Origin: Bacteroidota bacterium
Lineage (GTDB): Bacteria; Bacteroidota; Bacteroidia; Bacteroidales; JACABE01
Direction of reading: 5' to 3'
Length of the DNA stretch: 48,810 bases
NCBI GenBank assembly: GCA_013377005.1
Contig: JACABE010000002.1
Location: 75,349-124,158, forward strand
The position numbers and the translations under genes are program-made. Positions 35,515-47,211 of this stretch are shown here, piece after piece. Under the pieces are notes generated by a model. The model did not search any database. It was not told the DNA's origin and saw only the letters and a list, made by a program, of their open reading frames with translations. Each line of letters opens with the position of its first letter. Within the stretch, counting starts at the first letter, position 1.

Positions 35515-35553
35515 GAAAAAAGGCTCGTTTCAGTTGAAACGAGCCTTTTTTAT
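35515..35553 (+). terminator. Strong intrinsic terminator
   Basis: AAAAAGGCTCGTTTCA / TGAAACGAGCCTTTTT is a 16-bp perfect stem with a 2-base loop, followed by T-rich sequence. It ends the two-component system/lipoprotein operon. Confidence 0.92.
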
Positions 35554-35819
35554 TATCAGATATAAATTATAATATGAATAAAAAAAAGTTGAAAAGAAGT
35601 CTGCTAGTAAAGAAAGTTCAATAAAATAATTACCTTAAATTAAAAACACACTTATTTAATTATTCTAATAAAAATCATATAGACTTTAATACATTTGCAT
35701 TTAAGGAATTAGATTTGAAGCCATTTCCCCCAAGATTTTAGACAATGGTAAATTATTAAGCTTTAATTGATTTTATATACACAAACAACTCTTAACGATA
35801 CGATAACAAAAAAAAATAA
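35554..35819. other. AT-rich intergenic region before tetR
   Basis: No gene or RNA recognised. An isolated TACATTTG at 35690-35697 matches a -7 box but lacks a -33 partner and has no open frame behind it. Confidence 0.4.
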
Positions 35820-35841
35820 ATTGATTAAACGTTTGTTTGAT
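35820..35841 (+). promoter_or_regulatory. Putative TetR operator upstream of tetR (site 1)
   Basis: ATTGATTAAAC|GTTTGTTTGAT has one good half-site (GTTTGTTTGAT); the other half matches its mirror at 7 of 11 positions. It lies just upstream of a -7 box TAGTTTTG (35851-35858), so binding would block transcription of tetR. It shares the GTTTGT half with sites 2 and 3. Confidence 0.55.
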
Positions 35842-35874
35842 TTTTATTTATAGTTTTGCAAAATCAAAAATACA

Positions 35875-36501
35875 ATGGAAGTTTCAAAAAAAATACAAGG
35901 AGATGCTTTTGAGCGAATAGTTGATGCTAGTGCTGAACTTTTTGCAGAAAACGCATTCCATTCAGTTGGAGTAAGAGAAATTGCTAACAAAGCAAATGTA
36001 AATATCTCAATGATTTCTTATTATTTTGGTGGTAAGGCTGGAATTTTAATTGAAATATTAAACCGTTTTTTTGATTTACAACTTGGTACATTAAAGGCAT
36101 CAATTATTGAAACCGATACAAAAGAACAGAGTATTAAAAGAATGTTCCATAATATTGTAAGTATGATAAGAAATCACACCAATATTTGCTTAATAGGCTT
36201 TAGTGATTTGCCAAATAATGTACCGGAAGTATATGATTTGAAAATAAACAAAACCAATCAGATGATGGAAATAGGCAATCAGATTTCTACAAAATTTGGT
36301 ATAGATTTTTGCAGACAAGAACAAAACCATATTATAGGTCCAGCAATGATGAGTATGTTGATTTCGCATTTTACACATAAAAATTTTATATCACAAATAT
36401 ATAAAGTAGAGTTTAATGATGAATATTACGACTCATATTGTAATACTTTAGCTGATTTATTTTTATTTGGTATAACAGGTTTTTTAAAAAAGAATGAATA
36501 A
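35875..36501 (+). CDS. TetR/AcrR-family transcriptional regulator
   Basis: 208 residues. The N-terminal helix-turn-helix is clear: RIVDASAELFAENAFHSVG, VREIANKANVNISMISYYF, GGKAGILIEIL. The C-terminal ~150 residues form the variable ligand-binding and dimer domain; the ligand is unknown. It precedes the inositol-lipid operon on the same strand by 132 bp. Similar palindromic sites lie before and after it, which suggests autoregulation and repression of the operon. A lipid or acyl ligand is plausible from context but not visible. Confidence 0.9.
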   Translation: MEVSKKIQGDAFERIVDASAELFAENAFHSVGVREIANKANVNISMISYYFGGKAGILIEILNRFFDLQLGTLKASIIETDTKEQSIKRMFHNIVSMIRNHTNICLIGFSDLPNNVPEVYDLKINKTNQMMEIGNQISTKFGIDFCRQEQNHIIGPAMMSMLISHFTHKNFISQIYKVEFNDEYYDSYCNTLADLFLFGITGFLKKNE

Positions 36502-36522: not shown

Positions 36523-36544
36523 ATTAAACAAATGTTTGTTCTTT
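36523..36544 (+). promoter_or_regulatory. Putative TetR operator (site 2)
   Basis: ATTAAACAAAT|GTTTGTTCTTT contains the core AAACAAATGTTTGT (36526-36539). The identical 14-base core recurs 35 bases downstream in site 3. Confidence 0.65.
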
Positions 36545-36557
36545 TTTTCATAAATTT

Positions 36558-36579
36558 ATCAAACAAATGTTTGTGTGAT
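36558..36579 (+). promoter_or_regulatory. Putative TetR operator (site 3)
   Basis: ATCAAACAAAT|GTTTGTGTGAT: the two 11-base halves mirror each other at 9 of 11 positions. The core AAACAAATGTTTGT equals that of site 2. It overlaps the -33 TTTG of the operon promoter. Confidence 0.7.
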
Positions 36580-36633: not shown

Positions 36634-37323
36634 ATGAATTACGCCATAATAGCTGCAGGAGAAGGCTCAAGACTAGTTAAGGAAGGCATCAATTGCCCCA
36701 AACCAATTATTGAAGTGAATGGAGAACCAATGATTAAGAGATTGTTGGATATTTTTTCCTTAAACAATGCTAAAGAAATAAGCATAATCATAAACGAAGA
36801 AATTATTGCTGTTAAACAATATGTTGAATCATTAAACTATTCATTTCAAATAAAATTTAAAATAAAAACAACCTTAAGTTCGATGCACAGCCTATTCGAA
36901 ATGAGAGAGTTAATTAGTAATGAAGTATTTTGTTTAACCACAGTTGATACTATCTTTAAGCCTAAAGAATTTGAAGCATTTATAAATTTTGCTAAAAATC
37001 AAACCGATAAAGATGCTGTAATGGCAGTAACTACTTTTAAGGATGATGAAAGTCCATTATTTATTAAGACAAAAGAAGACAAAATAATTGAATTCTCAGA
37101 TAAAAAATCAGATTGCAAATATGTATCAGGGGGGATTTATTACTTGCAACCAAGAATATGGAGTGTACTTGAAAAATCAATTACATCAGGAAATCAACGA
37201 ATGCGGAATTTTCAACGGGATTTGCTTAAAGCAGATTTAAAAATTGGCTTTTATGAATTTTCGAAAATTATTGATGTTGATCATGCTAAAGATATTGAAG
37301 AAGCAGAAAAATTATTAAAATAA
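36634..37323 (+). CDS. Sugar-phosphate-type nucleotidyltransferase (predicted inositol-phosphate or phospho-alcohol cytidylyltransferase)
   Basis: 229 residues of the NTP-transferase (Rossmann-like) fold. IIAAGEGSRL (residues 5-14) is the nucleotide-binding loop, CPKPIIEVNGEPMI holds the conserved Lys-Pro, and TTVDTIF probably carries the metal-binding Asp. Such enzymes make CDP- or UDP-activated alcohols or sugars. With inositol-phosphate synthase and a CDP-alcohol phosphotransferase in the same operon, the likely product is CDP-inositol or a related activated headgroup; this is inference. First gene of the operon; the next gene starts 12 bp later. Confidence 0.82.
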   Translation: MNYAIIAAGEGSRLVKEGINCPKPIIEVNGEPMIKRLLDIFSLNNAKEISIIINEEIIAVKQYVESLNYSFQIKFKIKTTLSSMHSLFEMRELISNEVFCLTTVDTIFKPKEFEAFINFAKNQTDKDAVMAVTTFKDDESPLFIKTKEDKIIEFSDKKSDCKYVSGGIYYLQPRIWSVLEKSITSGNQRMRNFQRDLLKADLKIGFYEFSKIIDVDHAKDIEEAEKLLK

Positions 37324-37335
37324 ACAATTCAATTT

Positions 37336-38244
37336 ATGGGAAATATAATAAAAATTATAGGTATATCCAGAGGAGAAATTTTCTCTCCAAACCACACAAA
37401 TAATGATGGTATGATTTTCCAGCAAACTGTCAATGAGTTAAGTGCCTTAGGTGCTACAGTTGAAATAATGGATGAAAAGGCTTTTCAAAAAACTGAAGTA
37501 AAAACTAATATTCTATTTTCGATGGCAAGAGATCCCAAATCCATAAATAAACTAATTGAATTGGAAAAGAACGGAGCTTTGGTAATCAATTCAGGAAATG
37601 CAATTAATAACTGTTATAGAGCAAATCTTACTAAAATACTGCTTGATAATTATATTTCCTATCCAAAATCAATCATTGTAAAAACAAATGACGTGGTTTG
37701 GGAAGAATTGAATGTTTTCGAAAATTATCCTGTCTGGATAAAACGTGGTGATGTGCATGCTATCCATAAAGAAGATGTTGTATTGGTTTACAGTCTTGGT
37801 GAAGCCAATAATGTTTTATCTGAATTTCATAAAAGAGGCATTGTGGAAGCAGTAATTATGGAGCACGTTTATGGAGATATTATTAAATTTTATGGAGTCA
37901 GAGAATCCGGATATTTTCATTGGTTCAACTTATTAGATACAAATCACTCTAAGTTTAACATTGAAAAAGATGTGAATAGCAATAATCATACATTTTTTAA
38001 TATAAACGATTTACGAGAGTTAGCTGAATCAGCTGCTCGTTTGGCAGGAGTTTATATTTATGGTGGTGATGTAATTGTGCAGAAAGATGGTAGTTTGTGT
38101 TTGATTGATTTAAACGATTGGCCAAGCTTTGCACCAATAAGAGATATTGCTTCAAATAATATTGCAAGAATGATATATAATCAGGCGGTTAAGTTTGTAA
38201 AAGAAGGTACAAAACCTTTTGTTTTTCAAAATCAATTGGTATAA
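37336..38244 (+). CDS. ATP-grasp-like enzyme within the inositol-lipid operon
   Basis: 302 residues. VWIKRGD (133-139) fits the ATP-binding lysine strand. VIMEHVYGDIIKFYGV (173-188) fits the hinge and following strand of RimK/ITPK-like ATP-grasp proteins. GGDVIV and LIDLNDWPSF supply metal ligands (Asp245, Asp258, Asn260). ATP-grasp enzymes phosphorylate a carboxylate and ligate an amine or, in the inositol-polyphosphate kinase branch, phosphorylate a hydroxyl. The N-terminal ~90 residues would be the pre-ATP-grasp domain. Its position between nucleotidyltransferase and phosphotransferase genes suggests a headgroup modification. No named family is recognised with certainty. Confidence 0.72.
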   Translation: MGNIIKIIGISRGEIFSPNHTNNDGMIFQQTVNELSALGATVEIMDEKAFQKTEVKTNILFSMARDPKSINKLIELEKNGALVINSGNAINNCYRANLTKILLDNYISYPKSIIVKTNDVVWEELNVFENYPVWIKRGDVHAIHKEDVVLVYSLGEANNVLSEFHKRGIVEAVIMEHVYGDIIKFYGVRESGYFHWFNLLDTNHSKFNIEKDVNSNNHTFFNINDLRELAESAARLAGVYIYGGDVIVQKDGSLCLIDLNDWPSFAPIRDIASNNIARMIYNQAVKFVKEGTKPFVFQNQLV

Positions 38245-38250
38245 TTATAA

Positions 38251-38258
38251 AAAGGAGG
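38251..38258 (+). promoter_or_regulatory. Strong Shine-Dalgarno deciding the CDP-alcohol phosphotransferase start
   Basis: AAAGGAGG lies 8 bases before the ATG at 38267. Strong Shine-Dalgarno sequences are uncommon in Bacteroidota, so this one supports the ATG over an upstream in-frame TTG at 38219. Confidence 0.75.
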
Positions 38259-38266
38259 ATTTGAAA

Positions 38267-39178
38267 ATGGGAAATATTAAAACAGATTATGAATCAACAT
38301 TAAAATCGAGAGATACAGAAGAAACCTTGGATATCTGGTTTTATCGTCCGATAGGTTATCGCTGGGCTTTATTATGCAAGCGCCTGGGCATTAAACCCAA
38401 TCCCGTAACTATTACAAGTATTATTTTAGGTATGGCTTCGGGCTATTTTTTCTATTTTTCAGATATCAGGATGAATATTGTTGGGATGATTTTGCTGATT
38501 ATTGCTAATTCATTTGACAGTGCTGATGGACAACTTGCCAGAATGACAAACCAACAAAGCCGTTTAGGAAGAGTGTTGGATGGATTGGCAGGTAATCTGT
38601 GGTTTATAAGCATTTATTTCTTTATTTCATTGCGGTTAATGAACGAAGGTTATTCAGTAGCTATCTTCATATTAGCTGCTATTACTGGGTTTTTTCACTC
38701 TTTTCAGGCTGCAATGGCTGATTATTATCGCAATGCACATTTATTCTTTATCAAAGGGAAAGATGGAAGTGAGTTTGATAATTCTATTAAAGTTAGAAAT
38801 GATTACAATCAATATAGTTGGACTAAAAATTTCTGGAATAAATTATGGTTGCGGATTTATCTGAATTACACATCACAACAGGAAATTTTATCTAAAAATC
38901 TACAAAAACTAATGAAACTTATTCACAAAAAAAATGACGGGATAGTTCCTGAATGGTTGGCTGTAGAATTTCGCCAGTTAAACAAACCTTTAATGAAATA
39001 TACTAATATGCTTACTTTCAATACAAGAGCCATTGCACTTTTTATTGCAATGTTTCTTAATCACGTGATCTTATATTGGATTTTTGAATTAACTATTCTT
39101 AATATCATGCTGATTTATATGGTTGTCCGTCAAGAAAACATTAGTAAAAAAATGCATTATAAAGCAATTTTTGAATAA
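38267..39178 (+). CDS. CDP-alcohol phosphotransferase (putative phosphatidylinositol-phosphate synthase)
   Basis: 303 residues with hydrophobic membrane segments. The family motif is at residues 84-109: D84xxD87G88xxA91R92, eight residues, G101xxxD105. The fourth Asp expected at 109 is Gly, followed by Asn110. The enzyme joins a phospho-alcohol to a CDP-activated partner in the inner membrane. With inositol-phosphate synthase in the operon the best guess is phosphatidylinositol-phosphate synthase, or an equivalent acting on a dihydroceramide or on CDP-inositol. The start is fixed by a strong Shine-Dalgarno 22 bp after the ATP-grasp stop. Confidence 0.85.
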   Translation: MGNIKTDYESTLKSRDTEETLDIWFYRPIGYRWALLCKRLGIKPNPVTITSIILGMASGYFFYFSDIRMNIVGMILLIIANSFDSADGQLARMTNQQSRLGRVLDGLAGNLWFISIYFFISLRLMNEGYSVAIFILAAITGFFHSFQAAMADYYRNAHLFFIKGKDGSEFDNSIKVRNDYNQYSWTKNFWNKLWLRIYLNYTSQQEILSKNLQKLMKLIHKKNDGIVPEWLAVEFRQLNKPLMKYTNMLTFNTRAIALFIAMFLNHVILYWIFELTILNIMLIYMVVRQENISKKMHYKAIFE

Positions 39179-40186
39179 ATGAAGCTTAAAATTCTAAATT
39201 ATCGAACGCTGTTTTTTCTTATTGGTTTTGGGATGCTTGCATATTTGGTTTATAAGTTGGGTTTTCAAACGATAATTAATAATATTTTCAAAACTGGTTG
39301 GTGGTTTTTGGGAGTAATTGGTATCTGGCTGATAATATATATATTAAATGCTTTAGCATGGTTTAATATCATAGGAGAAGAAAAAAAAGAGATAGGGTTT
39401 GGGAAAGTTTTAAAATTTACTATCAGTGGGTTTGCAATTAATTATATAACACCTTTTGTAAGTTTGGGTGGAGAACCTTATAAAGTACTGGAATTAAACA
39501 AACATCTTAATAAAAATCATTCAACAGCCACCGTAATTTCTTATAATATGATGCATATTTTTTCACACTTTTTCTTTTGGTTAACTGCAATCATTGCATT
39601 GTTTTTAACTATAGAAATTGAAATAAGAAGTATGCTTTTATTAATTCTTGGAATGATAATTTGTATTAGTGTTATTTATCTGTTTTTCAAAGCTTACAAA
39701 AGAGGCATAGTTGAATTGGCAATTAAAACTTTTTCAAAGATTTATTTTGCCAGACTATTTGTAAAGAAAATAAAGGATAAGCAAGAATTGTTGCAGAATG
39801 TTGACAAGTATATTATTGATTTGTATCATGATAGAAGAAATAGTTTTTATTATATTTTATCTTTGGAATATTTTGCACGAATTATAGGGTGTTTAGAGTT
39901 TTTCTTTATTCTGAAAGCTATTTCATTTGATATTAGCTTGTTTGATGCTTTTTTAATAAGTGCAGGTTCATCACTTTTTGCCAATTTATTTTTCTTTATA
40001 CCACTTCAAATGGGTTCACGTGAAAGTGGATTTTATCTTGTTTTTCAGAGTTTGAAATTAACACCTGCAATTGGTGTTTATGTTAGTATAATTACAAGAA
40101 TCAGAGAGTTTTTCTGGATATTAATAGGGCTTATTTTAATAAATATTAAGCCTAAAACTAATATAATCAATGTTGAATATGAATAA
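39179..40186 (+). CDS. Flippase-like membrane protein (LPG synthase transmembrane/UPF0104 type)
   Basis: 335 residues with about eight hydrophobic segments and short basic loops. FISGFAINYITPFVSLGGEPYK-type sequence (around residues 80-102) and PLQMGSRESGF (around 275-285) are patterns of the lysylphosphatidylglycerol synthase transmembrane region, found alone in many lipid-export loci. It probably moves or positions the inositol lipid or its precursor across the inner membrane. Its ATG directly abuts the preceding stop codon. The catalytic aminoacyltransferase domain of true LPG synthases is absent. Confidence 0.8.
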   Translation: MKLKILNYRTLFFLIGFGMLAYLVYKLGFQTIINNIFKTGWWFLGVIGIWLIIYILNALAWFNIIGEEKKEIGFGKVLKFTISGFAINYITPFVSLGGEPYKVLELNKHLNKNHSTATVISYNMMHIFSHFFFWLTAIIALFLTIEIEIRSMLLLILGMIICISVIYLFFKAYKRGIVELAIKTFSKIYFARLFVKKIKDKQELLQNVDKYIIDLYHDRRNSFYYILSLEYFARIIGCLEFFFILKAISFDISLFDAFLISAGSSLFANLFFFIPLQMGSRESGFYLVFQSLKLTPAIGVYVSIITRIREFFWILIGLILINIKPKTNIINVEYE

Positions 40187-40187
40187 A

Positions 40188-40895
40188 ATGGAAAACATTA
40201 AAGGAGTTTTGTTTGATTTTGGTGGAACCATTGATACCAATGGTATCCACTGGAGTGAAATGATTTGGATGGCTTATGAAACGAATAAAATTGCCGTTAA
40301 AAAAGCTAATTATTTAAAATCATATATTTATGCTGAAAGAAATTTAAGTACAAGAAACATCTCAGAAACAACAACATTTTATGAAACGCTGTCGTGTAAA
40401 CTCAATTTACAATTACAGTTTTTGCATAGAGAAAAGTATTCGGGAAATATTAATATTGAAACTGAAGCGAAACTATTGCTAGATACTTGCTATGAACAAG
40501 TAAAAAGTAATATTAACAGTAAAAAGGATGTGCTTCTTTATTTAAAAAACAAATATGTATTGGGTTTGGTTTCAAATTTTTATGGTAATCTTAATACTGT
40601 GGTCAATGAATTTGGATTGCAAGGTATTTTTACAGAAATTATAGATTCTCAAATTCATGGGTTAAGAAAGCCAGATCCTATGCTTTGGCAGGTAGCTTTA
40701 AAGCTTCTTGATTTACAAGCTGAAGAAACTGTTATCGTTGGCGATTCATATATAAATGACATTGCCCCTGCCAAATATCTTGATTGCAAAGCTATATGGC
40801 TAAAAGGGAAAAGCTGGAATGATCAACACCAATTCGAGCATTTTTCCGCAGATCGCATAATATATACATTAAATGAATTACAAGAAATTTTATAA
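40188..40895 (+). CDS. HAD-superfamily hydrolase (predicted phosphatidylinositol-phosphate phosphatase)
   Basis: 235 residues. Motif I is LFDFGGT with nucleophile Asp10. Motif II is in LVSNF, motif III in GLRKPDP, and motif IV in VIVGDSYINDI. The usual Asp two residues after the nucleophile is Gly, as in a subset of HAD proteins. In this operon it would remove the phosphate from phosphatidylinositol phosphate. I took the ATG at 40188, the first after the preceding stop. In-frame ATGs at 40170 and 40179 would give a short overlap. Confidence 0.82.
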   Translation: MENIKGVLFDFGGTIDTNGIHWSEMIWMAYETNKIAVKKANYLKSYIYAERNLSTRNISETTTFYETLSCKLNLQLQFLHREKYSGNINIETEAKLLLDTCYEQVKSNINSKKDVLLYLKNKYVLGLVSNFYGNLNTVVNEFGLQGIFTEIIDSQIHGLRKPDPMLWQVALKLLDLQAEETVIVGDSYINDIAPAKYLDCKAIWLKGKSWNDQHQFEHFSADRIIYTLNELQEIL

Positions 40896-40920
40896 TACTA
40901 ACCTTTTAATAAGTAAGAAA

Positions 40921-42249
40921 ATGAATACAGATAAAAAAATGAATGTTGAACAGCCTAAAGGTAAAATGGGTGTTTTAGTAGTAGGTATGAATGGGGCTGT
41001 TTCTACAACCTTTATTGCCGGAACATTAGCAGTGAGAAAAGGATTAAATACCCCGGTGGGTTCACTTACACAAATGGGAACCATCAGAATTGGAAATCGT
41101 AGCGAAAATAATTTTCCTAAGATTAAAGATTTTGTGCCTTTAACTCAATTAAATGATATCGTGTTTGGTGGCTGGGATATCAGAGATGAAAATACTTATG
41201 AATCAATTTTGTATGCAAAAGTTTTAGATACCCGCGATTTGGAAGGTGTTGAAGACGAATTGAAACAAATTAAACCAATGAAAGCTGTTTTTGACAGCTA
41301 TTATGTAAAACGTTTACATAGTGATTGGAAAAAAGAAGGCAATACCAAATACGATTTAATGATGCAATTGCGTGAAGATATCCGCAAATTTAAAGCTGAA
41401 AATCAGTTGGATAGATTGGTAACAGTTTGGTGTGGTAGTACTGAAATTTTTATTCCGGAAGCTGAAGTGCATCAATCATTGGCTGCTTTTGAAAAAGGCA
41501 TGAAAGAAAACCATAAAGACATTGCTCCAAGTATGTTGTATGCTTATGCTTCTGTAGCCGAAGGCGTTCCTTATATCAATGGTGCTCCTAATTTATCGGT
41601 TGATATGCCTGCAATATGGGAATTAGCAGCTACTAATAATGTTCCTTTATGTGGTAAAGATTTCAAAACAGGTCAAACTATGATTAAAACCGTTCTTTCT
41701 CCAATGATTAAAACCAGAATGTTGGGTTTGGATGGCTGGTATTCTACCAATATCCTTGGAAACAGAGATGGAGAAGTATTGGATGATCCTGAATCATTTA
41801 AAACTAAAGAAGAAAGTAAGCTTTCTGTGATAGATTCTATTCTTCAGCCTGAGTTATATCCTGAATTATATGGAGATTACGACCATAAAGTAAGAATTAA
41901 TTATTACAAACCCCGTGGTGACAACAAAGAAGGCTGGGATAATATTGATATTTTTGGTTGGATGGGTTACAAGATGCAATTGAAAGTGAATTTCTTATGC
42001 CGTGATTCTATTTTGGCTGCTCCGCTGGTACTTGATTTGGTTTTGTTTATGGATTTGGCAAAACGTGCAGGTTTCAAGGGAATTCAATCATGGTTGTCTT
42101 TCTACTTTAAGAGTCCGATGCATGCAAAAAATGTAGTTCCCGAACATGATTTATTCATTCAATCAATTAAGTTGAAAAATACGTTGAGAGAAATTATGAG
42201 TGAAAAACCTATTGATTTCTTGGACGAAAAAATTGAATTATTTAGATAA
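40921..42249 (+). CDS. ino1: myo-Inositol-1-phosphate synthase
   Basis: Converts D-glucose 6-phosphate to 1D-myo-inositol 3-phosphate with NAD, the committed step of inositol synthesis. The N-terminal Rossmann loop is VLVVGMNGAVSTTF. Core motifs are GAPNLSVDMPAIWELA, PLCGKDFKTGQTMIKT, GWYSTNILGNRDG and YKPRGDNKEGWDNID, all typical of the family. About 442 residues from the ATG at 40921; an in-frame ATG at 40873 would overlap the HAD gene, and 40939 is also possible. Last gene of the operon, followed by a terminator. It supplies the inositol phosphate used by the genes upstream. Confidence 0.94.
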   Translation: MNTDKKMNVEQPKGKMGVLVVGMNGAVSTTFIAGTLAVRKGLNTPVGSLTQMGTIRIGNRSENNFPKIKDFVPLTQLNDIVFGGWDIRDENTYESILYAKVLDTRDLEGVEDELKQIKPMKAVFDSYYVKRLHSDWKKEGNTKYDLMMQLREDIRKFKAENQLDRLVTVWCGSTEIFIPEAEVHQSLAAFEKGMKENHKDIAPSMLYAYASVAEGVPYINGAPNLSVDMPAIWELAATNNVPLCGKDFKTGQTMIKTVLSPMIKTRMLGLDGWYSTNILGNRDGEVLDDPESFKTKEESKLSVIDSILQPELYPELYGDYDHKVRINYYKPRGDNKEGWDNIDIFGWMGYKMQLKVNFLCRDSILAAPLVLDLVLFMDLAKRAGFKGIQSWLSFYFKSPMHAKNVVPEHDLFIQSIKLKNTLREIMSEKPIDFLDEKIELFR

Positions 42250-42271
42250 GTTGATGTATTTTTAATTATTG

Positions 42272-42300
42272 ACAGGGAAGTATTGTGCTTCCCTGTTTTA
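42272..42300 (+). terminator. Intrinsic terminator of the inositol-lipid operon
   Basis: ACAGGGAAG / CTTCCCTGT is a 9-bp perfect stem with a 7-base loop, followed by TTTATT. It begins 22 bases after the ino1 stop. Some read-through into the next genes is possible. Confidence 0.82.
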
Positions 42301-42316
42301 TTCAAAATTTTATTTA

Positions 42317-42874
42317 ATGAAGTCCGTTTTTTTTACTTTGTTTATTATACCTCTGTTTGTAGGAAATTTCTTTATACCTTTTGAGTTGGGGACTAATACA
42401 AACACAAAAGATATACCATCTGGTATGAAGAAAAATAATCAAGCTTTATTTTATATTGAAAGAAGTAAAAATAAAAATCGAGTGTATTATGATGCCAATT
42501 TTGATATTAATGGAATAATAAATGCCGAAAAACCTATTGATGTATATTGGCTTAATCTTGAAGAAAATTACGGCAAAAGAGGTGAATTATCGTTTATTCA
42601 GGAGAAGATGGCTTATGGATATAGGTCGGGAAAAATTAGCGAAAGAACTTTTGAAATTAAACTTAAAGCTTTTAGTAAACGTCCGCTTATTGTTTTGGTT
42701 GATATAACAGGGAAAGCAAAAGCTCAAATTAAAATTCAGGGAAAGCAAGCGATATTGCATCACCTCTTTATAAAAGCTACTGATAAAGGAATTGTTACTA
42801 CTGTTCAATATATCGAATTGTTCGGAATCGACATTTACACAAAAACCGAACTTTACGAAAAAATCATTATTTAA
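42317..42874 (+). CDS. Exported DUF4833-like protein
   Basis: 185 residues from the ATG at 42317; an upstream TTG start would run into the terminator hairpin and was rejected. Signal peptide MKSVFFTLFIIPLFVG. Mature-part patterns such as LFYIERSKNKNRVYYDA and IDVYWLNLEENYG resemble the uncharacterised DUF4833 family. The enzymatic role is unknown. It lies between ino1 and the DUF5686-type outer-membrane gene, with 32 bp to the latter, so those two are probably cotranscribed. Confidence 0.7.
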   Translation: MKSVFFTLFIIPLFVGNFFIPFELGTNTNTKDIPSGMKKNNQALFYIERSKNKNRVYYDANFDINGIINAEKPIDVYWLNLEENYGKRGELSFIQEKMAYGYRSGKISERTFEIKLKAFSKRPLIVLVDITGKAKAQIKIQGKQAILHHLFIKATDKGIVTTVQYIELFGIDIYTKTELYEKIII

Positions 42875-42906
42875 CAACCATTCAATTAAAAACAAAAAAA
42901 ACTTAG

Positions 42907-45474
42907 ATGTCAATGCGAAGTCTAAATATCATTTCACTATTTTCTATTTTACTATTTATTTATCCTTTTAACTCCGTTAAATCACAAGAACTAACAACGG
43001 TTAGAGGTATTATAACCGATTCGGTTACCAACGACCCATTACCCTTTGTAAATATTATATTTCAAGGAAAAAACATTGGTACTACAACTGATTTTGATGG
43101 TAAATTTTCGTTGAGCACTAAATGGGCTTCTTCTACTATTAAAGTTTCATTTGTAGGATATGATCCTATTGTGAAGAAAATCACTATTGGAAAGTCGCAA
43201 TATCTTGAAATAAAGCTAAGACCTCATAACATTGATTTAAAAGAGGTGGTGATTAAAACAGAAAGCAAAAGATATAGAAATAAAGATAATCCTGCTGTGG
43301 AGTTAATCAGGAAAGTAATTGATAATAAAAAAAGAAACAGAGGCGAAGCTGCCAAATATTACGAATATAAGAGGTATGAAAAGCTGGAGATGTCGCTGAA
43401 TAATTTTGGCAATAAGTTTTTTGACAAGCCTATCTTGCGAAAATTAAAATTTGTTTTGGAATATGTAGATACTTCAAAAGTGAATGGAAAACCTTATCTG
43501 CCCTTTTATCTTAAAGAATCATTATCGAGGGTGTATTACAAACAAGATGGTGATATAAAACGTGAGTTTGTTGATGGACAAAGAGTAGTAGGATTGGAGA
43601 AATATATTGATCAGGATGGAGCAAATTCAATTAATAAAAGCATGTACACTGATATTGATATTTATGATAATGATATCTTTTTTATGACCAATCAGTTTGT
43701 AAGTCCTACCAGTGTGATTGCACCAACTTTTTATAAATTCTTCATTATTGATACCGTAATGGTTGATAACAGAAAATGTATCAATCTGGGATTTATTCCC
43801 CGCAATAAAATAAGCATGGGATTTACCGGAAACCTTTACATAACCGACGATACACTTTATGTTATTAAAAGAGTTGACATGGGTGTTTGCAAAGATATTA
43901 GTCTGAATTTTGTGAATGATGTTAAAATTGAACAGGATTTTTCGCTGACAAAAGAGGGTTTTTGGGCTTTAAACAAAGATGAAATGACCATTGATTATAG
44001 CTTATCGAAGAAAGGTTTAGGTATGTTTGCCCATAAAACGGTAACTTACAACGATAGAATGTATAATTTAGAGCGCCCCGATTCTAATTACAGAGGTGTG
44101 CAAAAATCCATTGTTGCCGAAAATGCTTCGCAACAACCCATGACTTATTGGAATTCAAACCGACCTATTCCATTGTCGCATTCAGAAAAAGGTGTGGAAG
44201 AAATGATGATTCGGGTGCAGAATGTTCCTGCATTTAAAAGGTTTATGAATATAGTAATGTTGATTTTTGCCGGATACGAAGAGGTTGGACCCATTGATAT
44301 TGGTCCAGTAAATACATTTTATAGTTTCAACGAAGTGGAAGGTTTGCGTTTAAGAGTGGGAGGAAAAACCAACCTTAAATTTAGCGACAGGGTGATGCTG
44401 GAGGGCTTTTATGCTTATGGTACTAAGGATGAAAAAAGCAAATATTTGGGAGCTATAACCTATTCTTTTAGAAATATTAAAACAATGTTTAACGAATTTC
44501 CTTCAAACAATATTAAGTTTACCTATCAGCATGATACTAAAATACCCGGACAGGAATTGAAGTTTTTTGCCGAAGATAACTTTTTACTTTCTTTTAAACG
44601 GGGTATATCCGATAAGATGACCTATAACGATTTATACAAATTAGAATACAATCAGGAGTTAACCAAAGGGATTTCGTATGGAATGTCATTCAAATATCTG
44701 GAACAATCACCAGGAGGTAACTGGAAATGGAATTATCGCGATAACGAAAGTAATAAAGTTTATAAAGATAAAATTACTACCAACGAAATTGGTATAAATT
44801 TCAGATTTGCACCTAACGAACAGTTTTATCAGGGTAAAACATACAGAATACCGATTTACAATCAATATCCGATTATTCAGTTGAGAGGTAATTTTGGTCT
44901 TAAAAACTTAATGAACGGCGAATATAATTATCAATGTTTAAATGTAAATATCTTCAAACGCTTTTATATGTCGATATTAGGTTATTCTGATTTAGAACTT
45001 GATGGCGGACGTATTTGGGGCAATGTACCTTATCCTTTACTATTTGTGCACAACGCCAATCAAACGTATGCATACCAGATTCAGGCATATAATATGATGA
45101 ATTTTTTGGAATTTGTGAGCGATAAATACGCAAGCATGAATTATACTCATTATTTTAATGGTTTGTTTTTGAACAGAATTCCTTTGTTCAAACGTTTAAA
45201 GTTTAGAGAATTGGTTTCGGTAAAAGCTTTGTTTGGCGAAGTAGGCGATAATAATAATCCTTACAAAAATCATGATTTATTGGCTTACCCAACCGATGCC
45301 AATGGTAATCCGCTTACTTTTACACTGGATGGAAAACCTTACGTAGAAGCCAGTGTGGGTGTGAGCAATATATTAAAGTTTTTGAGGGTAGATTTAGTAA
45401 AACGTATGACTTATATGGAAAACCCCAATGTTCCTTCATGGGGAATAAGAGCCAGATTTAAGTTCGATTTTTAA
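42907..45474 (+). CDS. DUF5686-like outer-membrane protein with carboxypeptidase-regulatory-like domain
   Basis: 855 residues. The signal peptide ends near VKSQ (residue 27). Residues ~30-110 form the beta-sandwich domain often found at the start of Bacteroidota outer-membrane proteins (VRGIITDSVTNDPLPFVN, TDFDGKFSL, VSFVGYDP). The remainder fits the DUF5686 family. The C-terminus has alternating beta strands and ends in ARFKFDF, a terminal aromatic typical of outer-membrane barrels. Function is unknown; no plug domain or TonB box is obvious. Confidence 0.8.
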   Translation: MSMRSLNIISLFSILLFIYPFNSVKSQELTTVRGIITDSVTNDPLPFVNIIFQGKNIGTTTDFDGKFSLSTKWASSTIKVSFVGYDPIVKKITIGKSQYLEIKLRPHNIDLKEVVIKTESKRYRNKDNPAVELIRKVIDNKKRNRGEAAKYYEYKRYEKLEMSLNNFGNKFFDKPILRKLKFVLEYVDTSKVNGKPYLPFYLKESLSRVYYKQDGDIKREFVDGQRVVGLEKYIDQDGANSINKSMYTDIDIYDNDIFFMTNQFVSPTSVIAPTFYKFFIIDTVMVDNRKCINLGFIPRNKISMGFTGNLYITDDTLYVIKRVDMGVCKDISLNFVNDVKIEQDFSLTKEGFWALNKDEMTIDYSLSKKGLGMFAHKTVTYNDRMYNLERPDSNYRGVQKSIVAENASQQPMTYWNSNRPIPLSHSEKGVEEMMIRVQNVPAFKRFMNIVMLIFAGYEEVGPIDIGPVNTFYSFNEVEGLRLRVGGKTNLKFSDRVMLEGFYAYGTKDEKSKYLGAITYSFRNIKTMFNEFPSNNIKFTYQHDTKIPGQELKFFAEDNFLLSFKRGISDKMTYNDLYKLEYNQELTKGISYGMSFKYLEQSPGGNWKWNYRDNESNKVYKDKITTNEIGINFRFAPNEQFYQGKTYRIPIYNQYPIIQLRGNFGLKNLMNGEYNYQCLNVNIFKRFYMSILGYSDLELDGGRIWGNVPYPLLFVHNANQTYAYQIQAYNMMNFLEFVSDKYASMNYTHYFNGLFLNRIPLFKRLKFRELVSVKALFGEVGDNNNPYKNHDLLAYPTDANGNPLTFTLDGKPYVEASVGVSNILKFLRVDLVKRMTYMENPNVPSWGIRARFKFDF

Positions 45475-46590: not shown

Positions 46591-47211
46591 TCATTTTATG
46601 AATTTGATTTTATCTTGTAAATATTTTATTCCTATATCAGTGGCGATACCACGGATATAATATATTAAAAGGGTATCAGATATCTCGTCGAAGTTTTCTT
46701 TAAATTCATTAAAATATAATTCAAAAACTTTGGCTTCGAGTCCCATCATATACAATGAAGAAATAATGTCAGGATTAATGCTTTTAAGATATAATCCTTG
46801 CTCAACTCCTGTGTGTAAATTCTGTTTTATGATCAGAATTATTTGCGATTTTCGTTGAATGCTCAATTCATTCCATAGATTTGGATAGTATTTATTTAAA
46901 TCATAGTTTAACGAAGGATTGAAATTGCGTAAATTATCTGTTAAGTACCTATTTATTGTCAGAAATTGTTCAATAGGATTTGATTGTGATTGATATATAT
47001 TTTTGAGTTGATCTAACTCAGATTTTAATTCAAAACGGGCAAATTTTTCTATGACATCGCTTTTATTATTGAAATATTGATATAATGTTTTTTTCGAAAT
47101 GCATAATTCGTGGGCAATATCATCCATTGTTAGACTTTTTATTCCATATTTTTTGAATAGAACAGATATTTTGCCCAATACTTCATTTATGATTCGTAAT
47201 AGATTTTGCAT
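46591..47211 (-). CDS. TetR/AcrR-family transcriptional regulator
   Basis: 206 residues. N-terminal helix-turn-helix: LFKKYGIKSLTMDDIAHELCISKKTLYQYFNNKSDVIEKFA. The C-terminal ligand domain is not recognised. It is different in sequence from the TetR at 35875. It has no obvious partner such as an efflux operon next to it, and no clear palindrome was found upstream. Neighbours are a winged-helix gene and a cysteine-rich gene. Confidence 0.88.
   Translation of the reverse strand: MQNLLRIINEVLGKISVLFKKYGIKSLTMDDIAHELCISKKTLYQYFNNKSDVIEKFARFELKSELDQLKNIYQSQSNPIEQFLTINRYLTDNLRNFNPSLNYDLNKYYPNLWNELSIQRKSQIILIIKQNLHTGVEQGLYLKSINPDIISSLYMMGLEAKVFELYFNEFKENFDEISDTLLIYYIRGIATDIGIKYLQDKIKFIK

Follow-up and report, generated by a model that had tools for sequence, protein, structure and literature searches.

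What lipid a Bacteroidales bacterium might make with a compact set of inositol genes, and by what route, is the question raised by one operon in a 48,810-nucleotide stretch of DNA (the window) from a Bacteroidota bacterium. The genome is a 3.69 Mb draft in 92 contigs (GCA_013377005.1), and the window covers positions 75,349 to 124,158 of contig JACABE010000002.1 (G000:C12:75349-124158 in our numbering). The likely transcription unit, 36634-45474, comprises eight genes on the forward strand downstream of a TetR-family regulator gene (35875-36501). We consider it probable, from the gene content and its conservation, that this operon builds a phosphoinositol lipid by way of cytidine diphosphate (CDP)-inositol.

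An earlier interpretation of the same DNA (the sequence-only reading) described six genes as a complete inositol-phospholipid operon under TetR control, and all six are open, on the forward strand and tightly packed in the claimed order. The first encodes a nucleotidyl (NTP) transferase, a candidate CTP:inositol-phosphate cytidylyltransferase (36634-37323, +; PF12804, E 2.8e-10; PF00483, E 6.8e-10), followed by an ATP-grasp protein that is a candidate inositol-phosphate kinase (37336-38244, +) and by a CDP-alcohol phosphotransferase (CDP-AP), a candidate inositolphosphotransferase (38267-39178, +; PF01066, CDP-OH_P_transf, E 6e-13). Next come an LPG_synthase_TM or HpnL-like integral membrane protein and candidate flippase (39179-40186, +; PF03706, E 2.9e-30), a HAD-family hydrolase and candidate phosphatase (40170-40895, +; PF13419, E 1.3e-13), and inositol-phosphate synthase (MIPS; 40873-42249, +; PF07994, E 4.5e-109; PF01658, E 8e-34). 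Pfam backs the assigned families of the NTP transferase, CDP-AP, membrane protein, HAD protein and MIPS. For the ATP-grasp gene Pfam gave nothing at E up to 0.01, and its identity is supported instead by NCBIfam MptN/RimK matches (2e-9, below cut-offs) and a confident AlphaFold2 model (pLDDT 90.4, pTM 0.88). A TTG at 38219 was judged a spurious CDP-AP start, the conserved N-terminus of the relatives beginning near the ATG at 38267. The unit is longer than six genes because two more come after MIPS: a DUF4833 gene (42269-42874, +; PF16117, E 1.6e-36; likelier start at 42317, giving a hydrophobic leader), which begins 19 bp downstream of MIPS (67 bp from the likelier start), and, 32 bp further, a gene for a CarbopepD_reg and DUF5686 protein with an Omp85-like C-terminal barrel (42907-45474, +; PF18939, E 7.9e-51).

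Relatives were taken as the best 80 of 565 confirmed loci from a CDP-AP alignment scan, some of whose stretches end at contig ends. Across these 80 loci we found the NTP transferase in 75, the ATP-grasp gene in 77, HAD in 73, MIPS in 50, the flippase-like gene in 30, DUF5686 in 14, DUF4833 in 11 and a TetR-like gene in 7. Dyadobacter clusters are among those with both DUF4833 and DUF5686. The sequence-only reading had proposed a neighborhood search for its six-gene order, and what recurs is the trio of NTP transferase, ATP-grasp and CDP-AP genes, which adjoin one another on a single strand in 65 of the 75 loci having the full trio. The recurrence of this order in different genera speaks against chance. 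Two of the 65 (L026 and L088) achieve contiguity through an NTP–ATP-grasp fusion, a fusion also present in L008, and CDP-AP is fused to HAD in L043. Rather than the extra gene that it had been taken for, the ATP-grasp gene is a core member of the cluster.

Co-occurrence followed the same pattern in a sample of 395 genomes of the window's phylum, in which the lines were drawn at E < 1e-80 for CDP-AP (set after the list was seen; the next match was at 4.9e-47) and E < 1e-15 for ATP-grasp. The CDP-AP clade was present in 19 genomes, and the ATP-grasp protein in 15 of these and in none of the 376 others (Fisher p 7e-24, only a guide because related genomes are not independent). The four without it were G443, whose match lies at a contig end (L155), G405, G088 and G193; no NTP–ATP-grasp set was found beside the CDP-AP match in G405 (L156), G088 or G193, and long spurious frames in the G088 and G193 stretches may hide genes. 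In G452, a CDP-AP–HAD–MIPS–DUF5686 group (L126) and an NTP–ATP-grasp pair (L157) lie about 1.1 Mb apart on one contig, the same partners staying together here as in the fusions.

In the route we propose, MIPS would convert glucose 6-phosphate to inositol 3-phosphate (Ins3P), the ATP-grasp protein would add a phosphate to the inositol phosphate ahead of activation, and the NTP transferase would form CDP-inositol. The CDP-AP would then transfer phosphoinositol from CDP-inositol to a lipid hydroxyl, most likely that of ceramide, and the HAD protein would take off the surplus phosphate afterwards. The flippase-like protein, which has seven hydrophobic segments by a simple count, may flip the lipid, and its handling at the outer membrane may fall to the DUF4833 protein and the Omp85-like DUF5686 barrel. 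We are less sure of the kinase step, of the phosphatase step and of export, each taken singly, than of the core of this reading. We propose such a masked route because it accounts for the retention of both a kinase and a phosphatase and for the pairs seen in the fusions; hypothetically, it would also let the head group be attached by a hydroxyl that MIPS does not phosphorylate. The most elaborate version combines a bacterial kinase like the inositol-trisphosphate kinases (ITPKs), acting from Ins3P to a bisphosphate, CDP-inositol phosphate, ceramide and HAD unmasking, with export by DUF5686 and with sister lineages that use inosamine and an MlaEFD-like transporter; this combination is speculative and, taken whole, rather unlikely.

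In the NTP transferase, R13, K23, D105 and D216 are found in 25 of 25 sequences. NCBIfam places it closest to a sugar-1-phosphate nucleotidylyltransferase (TIGR03992, 8e-17, below cut-off), with the bifunctional IPCT/DIPPS model second (NF041135, 5e-14, far below cut-off), and its PDB matches are glucose-1-phosphate cytidylyltransferase (1tzf, 1.6e-8) and then 4jd0 (2e-4), identified in a passage of PMC12275187 as the Thermotoga inositol-1-phosphate cytidylyltransferase. Profile matches of the CDP-AP are to AF2299 (4o6m, 1.5e-11) and IPCT/DIPPS (4mnd, 1e-4), and the protein carries the D-x2-D-G-x2-A-R...G-x3-D motif with three aspartates invariant in all 33 sequences.

The ATP-grasp protein shares with ITPKs the ATP-grasp fold and a D-x-N metal motif, and ITPKs lead its profile matches. 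A profile search of the PDB was led by the ITPK 1z2n (4.6e-5), followed by ArgX (7e-4) and 7pup (2e-3), while a single-sequence search gave nothing significant, its best E of 0.061 belonging to four ITPK1 entries (for the relative in L006, the same kind of search returned DdlB at E 1.8). D245 and D258 are present in 66 of 66 sequences and N260 in 65, aligned to the D-x-N of ITPKs and the aspartate before it; ArgX and DdlB, the only ligases compared, have E-x-N, and the RimK-type E-x-N is absent from this family. Lys184, also in 66 of 66, aligns by eye to a lysine of 1z2n (IVKVF) where ArgX has arginine (RDIRC), a comparison of fragments only. Function could not be read from fold alone. Because of the D-x-N motif, Lys184 and the ITPK lead in the profile search, we lean towards a kinase rather than a ligase, without filing the protein as an ITPK. 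The resemblance is very remote, and the present protein is bacterial, whereas passages of a review mention those of eukaryotes and archaea (PMC8024741). Among the open-licence PMC matches listed, none had a title dealing with a bacterial ITPK.

Ceramide is the likelier acceptor, rather than a glycerolipid, because genes for serine palmitoyltransferase (SPT) lie beside clusters, the window genome has two of them, and a matching lipid has been reported from Sphingobacterium. SPT was found in the stretch covered at 11 of the 80 loci. In Runella zeae (L016) the run reads TetR, SPT, GNAT, SDR, DUF5686, NTP transferase, ATP-grasp, CDP-AP, flippase-like, HAD, PfkB, DUF4833 and fatty-acid hydroxylase, the SPT scoring 735 bits against the NF047600 cut-off of 640. 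Both SPT proteins of the window genome exceed that cut-off, one about 9 kb past the window's end (L141, 683.8 bits) and the other encoded beside a GNAT gene (L142, 710.1 bits). SPT, cluster and MIPS occur together in only one of the 80 loci (L077), and also in L143, from a genome of the window's order. Each of the 11 Sphingobacterium loci has genes for MIPS, NTP transferase, ATP-grasp, CDP-AP and the flippase-like protein (the last truncated at a contig end in L027 and split into two frames in L056); S. spiritivorum, a species outside the 80 loci, is reported to make ceramide phosphoryl-myo-inositol (cited in a passage of PMC9246714). For the lipids of Parabacteroides distasonis, nothing usable by title appeared among the open-licence PMC matches listed. 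An inositol lipid, as the sequence-only reading had it, is still the best interpretation of the operon, with a sphingolipid likelier than the glycerophospholipid it envisaged, and the claim of completeness is not supported, because the ceramide genes lie elsewhere in the window genome and the roles given to the ATP-grasp and HAD proteins are only candidate ones.

Several observations weigh against this reading. The SPT genes of the window genome are outside the operon, and 10 of the 11 SPT-bearing loci belong to Runella, Dyadobacter or Rhabdobacter and lack a nearby MIPS, so the ceramide and inositol links seldom coincide in one stretch. In 17 of the 30 genomes without a cluster-adjacent MIPS, none was found genome-wide (some are metagenome-assembled genomes, MAGs). 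The best family and PDB matches of the NTP transferase are sugar-phosphate enzymes, and its substrate is for that reason read from context. The fourth aspartate of the CDP-AP motif (G-x3-D-x3-D) is replaced by Gly109 in 33 of 33 sequences, the next residue being D in 25, N in 7 and E in 1; in solved CDP-alcohol phosphotransferases this aspartate is thought to act as base, so acceptor activation may differ here. Motif I of the HAD protein is D-x-G-G-T (D16 and G18 in 29 of 29), with glycine at D+2, which some HAD phosphatases tolerate. For the ATP-grasp protein, the 1z2n match is a sum of weak short stretches (best single i-Evalue 0.44), the nearest folds are RimK/LysX/ArgX ligases (Z 21-22 over 247-255 residues, rmsd 2.8-3.2), and ITPKs are absent among the 50 VIA fold rows listed, appearing in Foldseek from rank 15. 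Those 50 rows hold amino-acid ligases (RimK, LysX/ArgX, Ddl and kin), carbamoyl-phosphate synthetases, synapsins and PurT. Against Pfam, eight ATP-grasp members matched no ITPK family at E up to 10, a range in which HMMER filters drop most matches above about 0.1.

Those fold matches are an argument for a different role of the ATP-grasp protein, as a carboxylate-amine ligase attaching an amino acid to the head group, which would yield a decorated inositol or aminoinositol lipid. Eight loci of another class of the phylum (L148-L155), described below, would suit such chemistry, having an aminotransferase and Gfo/Idh/MocA pair and, in L148-L151, two ATP-grasp genes. The window cluster has neither aminotransferase nor dehydrogenase, however, D258-x-N260 stands in place of the E-x-N of the two ligases, and plain phosphoinositol dihydroceramide (PI-DHC) is reported, in the text of PMC9246714, from species carrying the published cluster; we regard the ligase role as quite unlikely. 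The CDP-AP could instead act like BT_1523 or the mycobacterial phosphatidylinositol phosphate (PIP) synthase, joining CDP-diacylglycerol to inositol phosphate, with HAD as the PIP phosphatase and the NTP transferase and ATP-grasp protein serving elsewhere. The CDP-AP–HAD fusion in L043, the two-step logic shown in Bacteroides thetaiotaomicron (PMC9246714, in part) and a best NCBIfam match of the CDP-AP to archaetidylinositol phosphate synthase, below cut-off, agree with this arrangement. It leaves aside two near-universal partners (75 and 77 of the 80 loci) that are fused to each other in three loci, and the BT_1523 model reaches only 25 bits against a cut-off of 350, making it very unlikely in our estimation.

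The product or the alcohol could also be otherwise. A soluble product of the di-myo-inositol phosphate (DIP) type made by hyperthermophiles would fit the sub-cut-off IPCT/DIPPS matches of the NTP transferase and CDP-AP, the 4mnd match of the latter, and the presence of MIPS and a phosphatase-like gene. To our knowledge DIP occurs only in hyperthermophiles, and a soluble product sits poorly with the SPT linkage, the flippase-like gene, the Omp85-like barrel and the MlaEFD-like genes of other lineages; we consider it extremely unlikely. That the alcohol is not inositol in part of the family, with a PfkB kinase supplying another phospho-alcohol in the Runella and Dyadobacter group, is an unlikely reading that draws on the 17 genomes without detected MIPS and on nine loci, none with a nearby MIPS, in which a PfkB gene directly follows HAD (all Runella, Dyadobacter or Rhabdobacter, e.g., L016:12707-13636). 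In L012 (2757-3776), whose genome has no detected MIPS, HAD is followed by a PfkB-like frame that is more remote (30% identical). There is also a precedent in CpgD, which is similar to inositol-1-phosphate cytidylyltransferase and uses phosphoglycerate (PMC12275187, in part). Against it, the window operon contains MIPS, for four of the nine PfkB loci MIPS is encoded at another place in the genome, and in a tree of 79 phosphotransferases the 17 MIPS-lacking rows are scattered among MIPS-bearing kin, including within Dyadobacter and Parabacteroides. The MIPS-lacking label changes nine times on this tree, at least seven of them forced, and is still more clustered than in shuffles; the scatter suggests repeated MIPS loss with the module kept.

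For the favored reading, a CDP-inositol route to an inositol lipid, these distributions mean that inositol is not proven family-wide: where MIPS is missing, inositol would be salvaged or the alcohol differs. The operon MIPS is the window genome's only PF01658 match at E up to 0.001. Genomes in which no MIPS was found include those of R. zeae, R. defluvii, Rhabdobacter roseus, Dyadobacter psychrophilus, Massilibacteroides vaginae and P. distasonis. The plant inositol kinase is a PfkB protein, so salvage through PfkB is plausible, if unproven, and the PfkB beside HAD is a candidate inositol kinase. A simple rule that PfkB replaces MIPS was rejected as not clean, given the four loci with MIPS elsewhere.

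The operon closely resembles a cluster already proposed in print. Heaver et al. (2022; PMC9246714) described, in the text of that paper, a putative alternative inositol-lipid cluster around MIPS, stated by the authors to be unconfirmed, in which an NTP transferase gives CDP-inositol, a CDP-alcohol phosphotransferase gives phosphoinositol diacylglycerol (PI-DAG), and HAD was suggested to be an AUR1-like PI-DHC synthase. The proposal was meant to account for the PI-DHC of B. vulgatus and Prevotella veroralis, both of which lack the BT genes, and a CarboxypepD-regulatory protein (BT_1527) was noted near both cluster types. Here too, NTP transferase, CDP-alcohol phosphotransferase and HAD genes lie together near MIPS, with LPG-synthase-like and CarboxypepD-regulatory genes in the vicinity, and the spacing of the locus tags BVU_RS13095, RS13105 and RS13115, compared by tags alone, would fit an NTP-x-CDP-x-HAD order. 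The window operon differs in having an ATP-grasp gene (a term absent from the main text of PMC9246714, figures aside), DUF4833, and a TetR gene with candidate operators, and its HAD protein has no hydrophobic segment by simple count, which makes the suggested AUR1-like lipid transfer unlikely. All 33 CDP-AP sequences also fail the last D of the search pattern given in that text, DX2DGX2AR...GX3DX3D. No follow-up of the alternative route appeared among the open-licence PMC matches listed beyond PMC9246714 and the review PMC10191378.

Other known systems share parts of this logic. The likeness to B. thetaiotaomicron on which the sequence-only reading drew is partial: MIPS, a CDP-alcohol phosphotransferase, a phosphatase and an inositol-lipid product are common to BT_1522-1526 and this operon, but the phosphotransferase is of another family, and the window genome has no BT_1523-type PIP synthase above the curated cut-off, the model NF052561 giving 25.2 and 20.6 bits against 350. 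HAD stands in for a PgpA-like phosphatase, NTP transferase and ATP-grasp genes are additional, and the route appears to pass through CDP-inositol. The archaeal and Thermotoga IPCT–DIPPS pathway likewise combines a cytidylyltransferase, a CDP-alcohol phosphotransferase and inositol phosphate; here the genes are separate and accompanied by a sphingolipid linkage and membrane and export genes. In Caulobacter, ceramide diphosphoglycerate synthesis involves the cytidylyltransferase CpgD, the CDP-alcohol phosphotransferase-domain protein CC_1159 and the phosphoesterase CC_1158 (passages of PMC12275187 and PMC11324152). That enzyme set, which differs in its phosphoglycerate head group and ceramide kinase, indicates that the same head-group logic recurs in another phylum. 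In the portions of text available, "inositol" is absent from PMC11324152 and "ATP-grasp" from both papers.

The TetR gene (35875-36501, +; PF00440, E 2.1e-12) precedes the operon and has an 84% identical counterpart at the same place in L010, a Bacteroidales MAG that is the nearest titled relative (CDP-AP 86% identical). We found three candidate TetR operators around it: an imperfect palindrome, 71% complementary, upstream of the gene (35812-35849, core 35824-35837 on the minus strand), a second site at 36527-36540 (+), with letters identical in L010, and an inverted repeat with arms 93% complementary at 36558-36579 (+). A 22-mer built from the third matches only itself in the window, with 0.05 matches expected. 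A core of ACAAA-YG-TTTRW, defined after the sites had been seen, is common to 35824 (minus), 36527 and 36562. All three sites recur at corresponding places in L010, where the core letters upstream of tetR are the same as the window's and the counterpart of the third site has one mismatch to the core. This recurrence is a stronger argument than the palindromes themselves, the stretch around tetR and the operon start being AT-rich with 11 inverted repeats in total, the 35812-35849 palindrome among them. L003 has two of the sites but, apparently being one and the same contig as L010, adds no independent support.

Exact matches to the core in the window are limited to 36527 and 35824; allowing one mismatch adds 38981, inside the CDP-AP gene, and 19407 (and 1697 and 4473 in L010). 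Genome-wide, the operator pattern gave six forward and six reverse matches against four and four for a control, no clear excess. A regulon reaching the SPT genes was rejected, no core site with up to one mismatch being found in L120, L141 or L142. The sites fit a TetR that regulates its own gene as well as the operon, presumably by repressing both. The claimed TetR control is supported for the window by conserved candidate operators, but a TetR-like gene occurs in the stretches of only 7 of the 80 relatives, and in R. zeae the TetR gene precedes SPT instead. A perfect inverted repeat of 17 nt that ends in a run of T (35516-35551), downstream of the 34561-35499 gene, probably serves as a terminator setting the TetR operon apart. 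Shortly downstream of the operon, at 46591-47211 (-), lies another gene of the TetR family (PF00440).

The DUF5686 protein offers a candidate for the last step. In its model (mean pLDDT 75.7), residues 460-854 match Omp85-type barrels (Z 17.3-19.9, rmsd 3.9-6.4, 278-317 residues aligned), and the 50 fold rows listed carry SAM, TamA, BamA/BAM and TOC titles, with one titled only "membrane complex". Pfam gave a CarbopepD_reg domain in place of POTRA domains, no fold search with the N-terminal half alone having been made. By its predicted model, the C-terminal barrel is Omp85-like, and it could act as a lipid exporter; DUF5686 was not mentioned in the open-licence PMC papers searched.

In some other lineages the CDP-AP gene has different neighbors. 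In the eight loci L148-L155 these are genes for a class III aminotransferase, truncated in L155, and for a Gfo/Idh/MocA oxidoreductase. The seven loci other than L155, which stops at a contig end, also have MlaE, ABC ATPase and MlaD-like genes; genes were assigned by Pfam in L149 and by position and N-terminal likeness in the other seven. L148-L151 each have two tandem ATP-grasp genes. Judged from gene content, these enzymes could possibly make an inosamine head group served by its own MlaEFD-like transporter; on inosamine lipids, nothing usable by title appeared among the open-licence PMC matches listed. In L125, which comes from the genome of L150, the order is the plain one of NTP transferase, ATP-grasp, CDP-AP, flippase-like, HAD and MIPS.

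A HisC-like aminotransferase gene adjoins that of a paralogous CDP-alcohol phosphotransferase in L120 (212-2165, contig G000:C2 of the window genome) and in L143 (6333-9008), where the pair and an NTP transferase paralogue lie between the SPT and GNAT genes and the inositol cluster. The window-genome paralogue (L120, 1269-2165) retains the fourth aspartate. These pairs may represent another module for ceramide head groups, of an ethanolamine-like kind. Elsewhere in the window, a single open reading frame of 7268 codons (156-21962, -) takes up nearly half of its length.

The alternative route to inositol lipids has been predicted in print and is widespread, and the window operon is a further example of that cluster type. 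In mice, B. thetaiotaomicron was less fit once its inositol lipids were lost (PMC9246714). What the present comparison adds is a near-universal, overlooked ATP-grasp step, a physical linkage to ceramide synthesis in some lineages, and the DUF5686 barrel as a candidate exporter. Many bearers of the cluster have no detectable MIPS, which predicts that they salvage inositol or use another head group.

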